A program made the translations under genes and the position numbers. The notes under the pieces are model-generated. The model made no database searches. It was not told the DNA's origin and saw only the letters and a program-made list of their open reading frames with translations. A stretch of 64,000 nucleotides of DNA from an uncultured bacterium (lineage in GTDB: Bacteria; Planctomycetota; Phycisphaerae; Phycisphaerales; SM1A02), in NCBI GenBank assembly GCA_903831295.1, contig CAIKXA010000013.1, positions 1 through 64,000 on the forward strand, written 5' to 3'. Shown piece after piece: positions 23,025 to 39,671 of this stretch. Numbering within the stretch: the stretch's first letter is position 1; the number at the start of each line of letters is the position of its first letter.

Positions 23025-24398
23025 ATGACGGAATCGGCTGCTCCATTGCGGGCTCAAGTTTTACTTATTGACGACGAGGTGGAGCACGCCCAAACCATGG
23101 CGGACTCCTTGAAGCGACCGGGTCATATTTGCACCATCGTGCACAATGTGGCCCAAGCGGAAAATGAGCTGCGCAACGGCAATTTCGATGTGATTGTCAC
23201 CGATCTCGTTATGGACACGCCCACAAGCGGCTTGGATGTTTTGAAACTTGCCAAGACACATCAGCCAGACGCTGAAACCATTTTAGTCACCGCGCATGGA
23301 GATGTTCCCACCGCCAAAGCCGCATTACAGGGTGGCGCCTACGACTTCATTGAAAAACCCTTGGACGTAATCGTGTTTCGCAACATCGTCCAGCGCGCCG
23401 CCGAGACCGTGTTGCTGCGCCATCAAAATTCCAACCTGCGCGGGCAAGTGGACGCCGCATACGGTTTTGAAGGAATCATCGGAGAGTCCGCGGCCATTCG
23501 CCAAGTCATCGCAACTATTCGGCAAATCGCGCCAAGCACTATTCCGGTGTTGATCACTGGCGAAAGTGGAACCGGCAAGGAGCTTGTGGCCAGCGCTATA
23601 CACAAACATTCAAAGCGCAAGGATCGCCGCTTCGCAACATTCAACGCGGCGGGTCAAAGCGAAACACTTTTGGAAGATCAGTTGTTCGGGCACGTGCGCG
23701 GCGCATTCACCGGAGCCGACCGTGACCGCGAGGGCGTGTTTGAATACGCCGACAAGGGCACGCTATTTTTGGATGAGATTGGCGACATGCCTTTGTCGAT
23801 GCAGCCCAAATTACTGCGCGTGTTGGAAACGGGCGAGTTGATTCGCCTGGGCGCAAATGATCCGCGCAAGGCCGATGTGCGCTTTATCAGCGCCACCAAT
23901 CAAGATTTAAAAACACGCTCAAACGATGGGCGATTTCGCCAAGATTTGTATTTCCGCCTCAAGGGAGTGGAGATCCATATTCCATCGCTGCGAGAGCGCC
24001 GTGAAGATGTTCCGAGGTTGGTCACACACGCCGTGGGCAAGTGGTGCGCTGAACTCGGCCGTCCAAGGCTTGGCGTTTCGCAGCCCGCCATGATGCGGCT
24101 CACGGCTTACGACTGGCCGGGCAATGTCCGTGAGTTGATCAATCTCATGCATCGAATCGTGGTCACATGCAACAAAACTGAAATCGATCTCGTGGATATT
24201 CCGGATGACATTCGCTCCAACGACAATGATGGTGGCGGCGTTGGAAGTTTCGCTGGCGTCGGTCTTGACAAACTTGAGAAAGAAGCCATCCGTCAAACGC
24301 TGGCGCTCACCCAAGGCAACCGCGAGCAAACCGCGCAAATGTTGGGTATTGGCGAACGGACCTTGTACCGAAAATTAAAGGAGTACGGACTCCGGTAG
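23025..24398 (+). CDS. Sigma54-dependent NtrC-type response regulator
   Basis: Receiver LLIDDEVEHAQ / VIVTDLVMD, AAA+ GESGTGKE, GAFTGAD, and Fis-type HTH C-terminus. Confidence 0.93.
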   Translation: MTESAAPLRAQVLLIDDEVEHAQTMADSLKRPGHICTIVHNVAQAENELRNGNFDVIVTDLVMDTPTSGLDVLKLAKTHQPDAETILVTAHGDVPTAKAALQGGAYDFIEKPLDVIVFRNIVQRAAETVLLRHQNSNLRGQVDAAYGFEGIIGESAAIRQVIATIRQIAPSTIPVLITGESGTGKELVASAIHKHSKRKDRRFATFNAAGQSETLLEDQLFGHVRGAFTGADRDREGVFEYADKGTLFLDEIGDMPLSMQPKLLRVLETGELIRLGANDPRKADVRFISATNQDLKTRSNDGRFRQDLYFRLKGVEIHIPSLRERREDVPRLVTHAVGKWCAELGRPRLGVSQPAMMRLTAYDWPGNVRELINLMHRIVVTCNKTEIDLVDIPDDIRSNDNDGGGVGSFAGVGLDKLEKEAIRQTLALTQGNREQTAQMLGIGERTLYRKLKEYGLR

Positions 24399-36202: not shown

Positions 36203-37288
36203 ATGAGTATCGCAACACCAGTAGCACCCACATTTGACAAAGGCCTTGGAAACACCGTCGCAGCGGAAACGCAGATGTCGTTTATTGACGGCGGGCGAGG
36301 CGTTCTTGAATATGTTGGAATTGAAATTGACGCACTCGCGCGCAACAGCACATTTGAAGAGACTGTGTTCTTGTTGTGGAACCGTCGCTTGCCAACCCAA
36401 TCGGAGTTGAATGCGTTCAGCGGGCAGCTTCGCGCCGAGTACGCGCTAACTCCATCACTTGTGAATCTTATCCGTGAAATGCCGCGCGATGCGGGACCAA
36501 TGCATGTGTTGCGCACGCTTGTCAGCGCGCTCTCTTTGTTTGACACCGAAGTCGAAGATGACAGTATTGAAGCCAACAACCGAAAGGCCATTCGACTGCT
36601 CGCCAAAACGCCTGCGCTTATCGCGGGCTTTGATCGACATCGAAAGGGCAAGCCAATTGTGGACGCCGATGCGACGCTCACTATGGCGCAAAATTTCTTG
36701 TACATGCTCAATGGGGCCAAGCCCACCGAGTCAATGGCAAAGGCGCTTGATGTGTGCTTGATTTTGCACGCGGATCACGGCTTAAATGCCAGCACATTCG
36801 CCGCTCGCGTGACTATTTCAACTCTCAGCGACATGTATTCGGCCATGGTCACCGCAATCGGAACGCTCAAAGGTCCGCTTCACGGCGGAGCCAATGAGGA
36901 AGTGATGATCATGTTGAATGAAATTGGAACCATTGAGAATGTGGACGCCTACATCGCAGAAAAACTGCGCAAGCGTGACCGCATCATGGGTTTCGGTCAC
37001 CGCGTGTACAAGGCGATTGATCCTCGCGCCACTTATTTAAAAACATTCTCCAAACAAGTTGCCGCGGACACTGGCAATTTGAATTTATTCGAGATGAGCC
37101 GACGCATAGAGGAGATCATGGACAAGGAAGTTGCCGCCAAAGGCATCTATCCCAACGTGGACTTTTATTCCGCCACCACATACCACTCCATTGGAATTGA
37201 CTTGGATTTGTTCACATGCATGTTTGCCATGAGCCGCATCGCTGGTTGGGCGGGGCATTGCATGAGCAACTCGATGGCAACCGGTTGA
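36203..37288 (+). CDS. gltA: Citrate synthase
   Basis: LHADHGLNASTFAARV, LKGPLHGGANEEVM, RDRIMGFGHRVYKAIDPRA. Confidence 0.94.
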   Translation: MSIATPVAPTFDKGLGNTVAAETQMSFIDGGRGVLEYVGIEIDALARNSTFEETVFLLWNRRLPTQSELNAFSGQLRAEYALTPSLVNLIREMPRDAGPMHVLRTLVSALSLFDTEVEDDSIEANNRKAIRLLAKTPALIAGFDRHRKGKPIVDADATLTMAQNFLYMLNGAKPTESMAKALDVCLILHADHGLNASTFAARVTISTLSDMYSAMVTAIGTLKGPLHGGANEEVMIMLNEIGTIENVDAYIAEKLRKRDRIMGFGHRVYKAIDPRATYLKTFSKQVAADTGNLNLFEMSRRIEEIMDKEVAAKGIYPNVDFYSATTYHSIGIDLDLFTCMFAMSRIAGWAGHCMSNSMATG

Positions 37289-37476
37289 TCCGCCCTAATG
37301 CGGCGTATATCGGTCCGCATCAGCAGGCGTATGTTGCCATTGATCAGCGTTGATGTTCATGGAGTTCGGCTTCTGAATTGCATTTCAAGCGTGGCTTGAT
37401 CCTTGCAGCATTTTCCGTTGCTCTTTCGATATCTCTAAAAACTATCTGTCTGGGTTTGGGCAGTGATAGACAGCGA

Positions 37477-38208
37477 TTAGATCGCAATCACTTCGCCTTC
37501 TTCCAAGCAAGAAATAGTGGTGGACTTGCGGTCAAACGCATCGGTCATGTGCATCAAGCGCATCTTTGCGCGGATATTTTCTGGAAGTGAATTCAGCGAC
37601 TAAACGGGCGTGTGCGTGGGTGGCGGACTTGTTTCGTGAATGATCAGATCCGCGTCTTTGGACAGCCAATCAATCAGCGCAAGATCAAATGGGGTGTCCG
37701 AACTCCATGCAATCACTTTCCCATTGGCCTGGAACTTCAGCGCGCTGGTTGGAATTGGATGCTGAGTGCCGCGGCAAGAAACTTTCATGCCGCCGATCAG
37801 GGTTTCGCGATCTGGATTGAGAAGGTGAATTTCAAAATAGTCGGCAAGTTTGGCGGCGCCGGATTGATCCATGGCTGGCGCAAGTCGTTCCCAAAGTCGA
37901 TCCGCCACAGGCTTCCATACGTGAAGTCGGGGAAGTGGAGCGCCAGTTTCGCGGCGTTGCAGCCAGCGTAAAAAACCGAAGCTTTCAAGACCATTGCAAT
38001 GGTCGCCATGCAGGTGGGTCACGATCAAATCCGTGATCGCGAGTTGATCAATCTTCCATCCACTTTTCTTTTCAGCGTTACGCAGCGCCATGGGCAGAGA
38101 ATCCGGACAATCAATCATGACTTTGCCAATGGGGCCTTCGATGATCGCGGAGCAACCAAATCGTTGCGCGGAAAATGCGTTGCCAGTGCCGATCATGAGC
38201 AATTGCAT
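37477..38208 (-). pseudogene. MBL-fold hydrolase (RNase Z-like) interrupted by an in-frame UAG at 37600-37602 (pseudogene or recoded)
   Basis: Upstream ORF (37600-38208) has VTHLHGDHCNG and ends HETSPPPTHTPV*. The same frame continues SLNSLPENIRAKMRLMHMTDAFDRKSTTISCLEEGEVIAI* to 37477. Confidence 0.65.
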
Positions 38209-38261: not shown

Positions 38262-39560
38262 TTAGCGCAAGGATGATCCGCCAAATTGCGCGTGTGTTCC
38301 AAGTTCTTCCGCGATGCGAAGCAGGCGGTTGTATTTGGCGGTTCGATCGCTGCGGCACGGCGCGCCAGTTTTAATTTGCCCGCAATTTGTGGCCACGGCC
38401 AAGTCTGCAATGGTGTGGTCTTCAGTTTCGCCGGAGCGATGGCTGAGAATCACATTGAAAGAAGCTTTTTGCGCCATGGCCACGGCTTCAAGTGTTTCAG
38501 TGAGCGTGCCAATTTGATTCACCTTGACCAAGATCGCGTTGGCGCAATGCTCAGTGATGCCGCGCGAGAGGAACTTGGGATTGGTCACAAACAAATCATC
38601 GCCCACAAGTTGCGTCGTTTTCCCCAGGCGCGTGGTCAAAGATTTCCAGCCGCTCCAGTCCTCCTCACCAAGACCGTCTTCAATGGATCGAATGGGCCAA
38701 CGCTTGCGCCACTCGCTCCACATGTCAATCATCTCGTCGCTAGTTGCGACGCGGTTTGGATCGCTCTTGAAAAACTTATAACCGTTCTTGTTTACTTTCT
38801 TGGCCTCGTTCACCAATTCACTGGTGGCCGGGTCAAGGCAAATCATGATGTGCCGACCAAGTTCGTAGCCGGATTTTTCAACAGCGATGGCGATCAAATC
38901 GCAAGCGTCCTCGTTGCGCTTCAGGTTTGGCGCGAAGCCGCCCTCGTCGCCCACCGCGGTTGAAAGATGTTTCTCATGCAGCACATCTTTCAAGCAATGA
39001 TAAATTTCCACTCCCGCGCGCAGGGCATCTTGAAACGTGTCAAAGCCAATCGGCTGGATCATAAATTCCTGAAAATCAACGGTGTTATCCGCATGTTTTC
39101 CGCCGTTGAGAATGTTCAGCATGGGCGCGGGCAAGGTGTTTGCGCCATCGCCACCAAGATATTTGTATAGCGGTTGATGGGTGTGAGCGGCGGACGCTTG
39201 GGCGTTGGCCAAACTGACAGCCAACATCGCGTTGGCTCCAAGGGCGGCCTTGTTGTGCGTTCCATCAAGATCAATCATGAGACGGTCGATGGTGGATTGA
39301 TCAAGCGCGTTGAGGCCCTTGAGTGCGGTCGCGATTTTTGTATTGACATGATCCACAGCTTTTGTCACGCCCTTGCCGCGGTAGTATTTTTTGTCGCCAT
39401 CGCGAAGTTCAACCGCTTCATTTTCTCCCGTGCTTGCGCCCGAGGGAACCGCTGCGCTGCCCACGGTTCCATCAGCGAGAGTCACTTGGCATTCCACCGT
39501 GGGGAATCCGCGTGAATCAAGAATTTGACGGGCGTGAATATGTTGAATGGCTGACTTCAT
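38262..39560 (-). CDS. eno: Enolase
   Basis: [72 protein letters not shown]. Confidence 0.97.
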
Positions 39561-39671
39561 GTTATTTACACCGTGGTTTTGAGAATGTAAGAATTGAACC
39601 TTCGCGCGGTGTTCAATGCGTGATTTCATGTTGCGTTGCGACGAAGCAGTGAGCGGACAATATAAGATGAT

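Follow-up and report, generated by a model that had tools for sequence, protein, structure and literature searches.

Apyc1-like class II cyclic-nucleotide phosphodiesterases include bacterial members, and SBSphiJ Apyc1 has a zinc motif at H64/H66/H69 and a catalytic Glu at E74 (PMC9117128). In tRNase Z (RNase Z), zinc is bound by the histidine of motif V (PMC2942849). The mark of stop-codon recoding (UAG suppression, pyrrolysine-type decoding and code variants) is a UAG within a frame whose coding sequence is conserved beyond it. The locus described here lies in a window of 64,000 nucleotides (contig CAIKXA010000013.1, positions 1 to 64,000) from the draft assembly of an uncultured bacterium of the Phycisphaerales order, and carries an MBL-fold hydrolase gene interrupted by an in-frame TAG.

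The ancestral extent of this gene is 37477-38208 on the minus strand, comprising 243 codons and a TAA stop, with the TAG at codon 203. The ORF as it stands (38208-37600) has 202 codons, encodes 202 amino acids and is closed by this TAG (37600-37602). Past the TAG, the same frame is open for 40 codons (37480-37599, minus strand) up to the TAA at 37479-37477, and the translation of 38208-37477 ends with ...IIHETSPPPTHTPV*SLNSLPENIRAKMRLMHMTDAFDRKSTTISCLEEGEVIAI*, where asterisks denote stops. The peptide MRLMHMTDAFDR is among those encoded downstream of the TAG. The split described in the original prediction was reproduced by translation, with the same coordinates and sequence.

The joined 243-aa protein matched the Pfam family PF23023 (Apyc1) with 54.8 bits over residues 1-226, above the curated cut-off of 50 bits, and the truncated 202-aa form scored 42.4 bits, below this cut-off. 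Apyc1 and Apyc1-like MBL phosphodiesterases (PF23023; structures 7u2r, 7u2s and 7t28) were the best match and covered almost the whole joined protein. The alignment to 7u2r and 7u2s continues past the stop (HTTLQELLSLPTEIQSQILLKHYSDDME versus HTPV*SLNSLPENIRAKMRLMHMTDAFD), with the C-terminal pattern HT..L..LP......H..D common to the hydrolase and Apyc1. The zinc motif HxHxDH and the subsequent Glu are present (THLHGDHCNGLE, H65/H67/D69/H70/E75), E75 corresponding to the catalytic E74 in SBSphiJ Apyc1. By its sequence, the hydrolase belongs with the Apyc1-like cyclic-nucleotide phosphodiesterases, and it putatively works like the class II enzymes of this group, whose hallmark is cleavage of cNMPs, cCMP and cUMP among them. 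However, it differs from Apyc1 in being chromosomal, beside citrate synthase and enolase genes, and not phage-borne, and this copy lacks the final 41 codons owing to the TAG; identity to Apyc1 is weak. No phage DNA match pointed to a phage origin of the hydrolase locus, and no PADLOC family was found that would suggest a defense-system origin. The hydrolase had previously been called RNase Z-like. The MBL fold stands, and HxHxDH and a motif-V-like C-terminal histidine are shared with tRNase Z, but the scores against the RNase Z profiles (TIGR02651, PRK00055) were far under the curated NCBIfam cut-offs, at 37.3 bits versus 292.95 and 39.1 bits versus 252. Membership in RNase Z was thus rejected, the Apyc1-like phosphodiesterases being closer. 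A structure prediction of the joined protein, based on a three-sequence alignment, had a mean pLDDT of 43 and was not used.

Codon 203 was compared among 23 relatives of the same genus, family and order whose sequences cover it; a further fragment (G015) ends at residue 62 and hence falls outside this set. The frame is open at the TAG position and the tail is present in all 23 relatives, none of which has a TAG at this codon. Residue 203 is Glu in 16 of them (GAG in 15, GAA in one); the remaining seven have W, A, S, S, G, R and D. With GAG at this site in the sister genome (G007) and in most relatives, the TAG is a single change from a sense codon, as had been proposed. Because the 40 codons after the TAG align with solved Apyc1 structures and with the 23 relatives, this open stretch is no product of chance but the true C-terminus of the family, and the earlier description of an intact C-terminus held. 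The stretch carries H220 (MRLMH), which is invariant in 24/24 copies and is located solely past the TAG in this copy. By analogy with tRNase Z, H220 is the likely motif-V zinc ligand; we infer that a 202-aa product without this histidine would have no activity, provided that the TAG is real.

The window and the sister genome share about 95% DNA identity. In the hydrolase gene, 17 codons differ between the two genomes: 14 differences are synonymous, two change an amino acid (residue 27, I here and T in G007; residue 204, S here and L in G007) and one is the TAG. The final 39 codons, after codon 204, show zero differences. The predominance of synonymous differences (14/17) indicates that the gene was intact and under purifying selection until very recently, and the comparison points to a stop that arose very recently, if it is real at all. 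In two congeners, G005 (95% complete) and G002, another gene adjoins the citrate synthase gene and a hydrolase homolog was not found. This absence from the locus indicates that the genus can do without the hydrolase.

The hydrolase gene is flanked by an intact enolase gene (38262-39629, minus strand) and is convergent with a citrate synthase gene (36203-37288, plus strand). Most members of the genus retain the convergent pair, as do two further genera of the same family. A frameshift in this convergent neighbor was overlooked in the original prediction: one base is missing at 37262/37263 (CATTGCAT-GAG, versus CATTGCATTGAG in relatives), which garbles the C-terminus of the citrate synthase, and the intact frame of the relatives would end near 37353. 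In a DNA search evaluated by match lengths, the deletion was absent from 13/13 congeners whose DNA covers this stretch, and the relatives examined have an unbroken citrate synthase gene. Two conserved, unrelated genes are thus broken 337 bases apart, in this genome only among the relatives checked. A second citrate synthase of 384 aa, intact, is encoded on another contig (G000:C7:7935-9005; L140), and this paralog is also kept in the relatives examined. Since the hydrolase is dispensable and an intact second citrate synthase is present, loss of the hydrolase and of one citrate synthase could be tolerated.

We also searched for broken genes by a wider comparison to G007, in which stretches of 733 kb were compared and 322 kb, with 246 genes, were aligned. 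The TAG of the hydrolase was the only clear mid-gene stop among the 246 genes. Likewise, within the 322 kb, no clear uncompensated frameshift other than the citrate synthase deletion was seen where both genomes have an open frame. Given the TAG, chance would place this single frameshift no farther than 337 bases from it with a probability of about 0.002 (about 0.2%). This clustering of the only two clear lesions makes a common local cause likely. Other flagged stops among the 246 genes were set aside, being near gene ends or in apparent shadow ORFs, several of which contain multiple stops; other apparent stops in the window corresponded to over-extended ORF starts or to a near-end stop also present in G004. 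The remaining non-triplet gaps were compensated close by or lay near over-extended ORF starts, with one ambiguous case in L088 near 4724.

The best explanation of both the TAG and the citrate synthase deletion is probably a local consensus or assembly error. An ordinary 243-codon gene for an Apyc1-like MBL-fold phosphodiesterase, intact in relatives, would have acquired the TAG through a local sequencing or assembly error in the draft assembly, and the same error would have removed one base from the convergent citrate synthase gene, at a distance of 337 bases. Both lesions would be covered by a faulty stretch of consensus sequence at about 37262-37603, due to low depth, a mixture of strains or a bad join. 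Sequencing error and a fresh nonsense mutation had both been listed among the original alternatives, and the break in an unrelated neighboring gene at a distance of 337 bases is the reason why error is now favored, with the fresh mutation second; the shared cause is inferred to be technical, not biological. Long homopolymers are the usual site of long-read errors, yet neither lesion lies in one, which is a point against error. The other reading of some weight, doubtful on balance although a real possibility, is a very recent GAG to TAG nonsense mutation in a dispensable gene, now a pseudogene or a strain-level polymorphism, in which case the citrate synthase frameshift would be real too, or an unrelated error. 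The absence of the hydrolase from the locus in the two congeners fits such an event, as does the match of the 39 codons past codon 204 with G007, which a fresh event predicts; without the invariant H220 in the truncated product, the lesion would be null. However, a real mutation demands two independent breaks in unrelated conserved genes no more than 337 bases apart, in an otherwise nearly break-free genome, and the neighboring citrate synthase is unbroken in every relative checked. If the stop is real, it would represent the fresh loss of a dispensable phosphodiesterase, an ordinary event. That the 202-aa protein would be a natural, functional short form is hardly credible: the MBL core with HxHxDH does precede the stop, but the tail, with its invariant H220, is found in 23/23 relatives, and the truncated form scores under the family cut-off.

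Decoding of the UAG as an amino acid by readthrough or recoding, with production of the full 243-aa enzyme, had been offered as another alternative. The intact and conserved C-terminus past the TAG is what such decoding would leave, but a fresh lesion would leave it equally. The genome gave 44 tRNA matches. ARAGORN assigned a type to 43 of them, the remaining one being a fragment at the end of a contig; no tRNA with the anticodon CUA, as expected of a UAG suppressor, was present among the 43 typed in this 84% complete genome. TAG is used as a normal stop, terminating 19 of the 248 genes that have a homolog in G007, and the earlier statement that TAG closes the genes ending at 24398 and 26069 is correct. 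Together with a single clear mid-gene TAG in 246 genes, this usage agrees with the earlier argument against genome-wide UAG reassignment. Codon 203 is TAG in no relative, and its residue is variable among them (E, W, A, S, G, R, D). Unlike known recoding systems, the present case concerns one gene in one genome, with no CUA tRNA found and TAG as a normal stop; nothing supports recoding, which we consider very unlikely. A real UAG that is usefully read through, so that one gene would yield an inactive 202-aa protein and an active 243-aa phosphodiesterase, is more improbable still. A single in-frame stop seen in only one draft assembly calls for caution, and nearby breaks should be checked before recoding is proposed.

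The immediate surroundings of the two lesions show some further features. Between them, at 37301-37597, the sequence has one difference from G007 in about 300 bases, intergenic part included. We considered whether this interval might derive from a G007-like strain as a chimeric patch, but positions 36701-37000 are equally similar to G007, so such a patch is not shown. At the TAG itself, three substitutions fall within 37598-37603, of which two are derived and alter residues common to G007 and G004, a point in favor of an error. One of these affects codon 204 (TCG, Ser; 37597-37599, minus strand), a derived change adjoining the TAG, where the two closest relatives have Leu. Adjacent derived amino-acid changes are found elsewhere in the window, so the pair formed by L204S and the TAG is not unusual by itself. 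The two derived changes bring the surroundings of the TAG closer to those of the natural stop, which may be coincidence: TCGCTG directly follows the premature stop (within 37594-37608) as well as the natural one (within 37471-37485).
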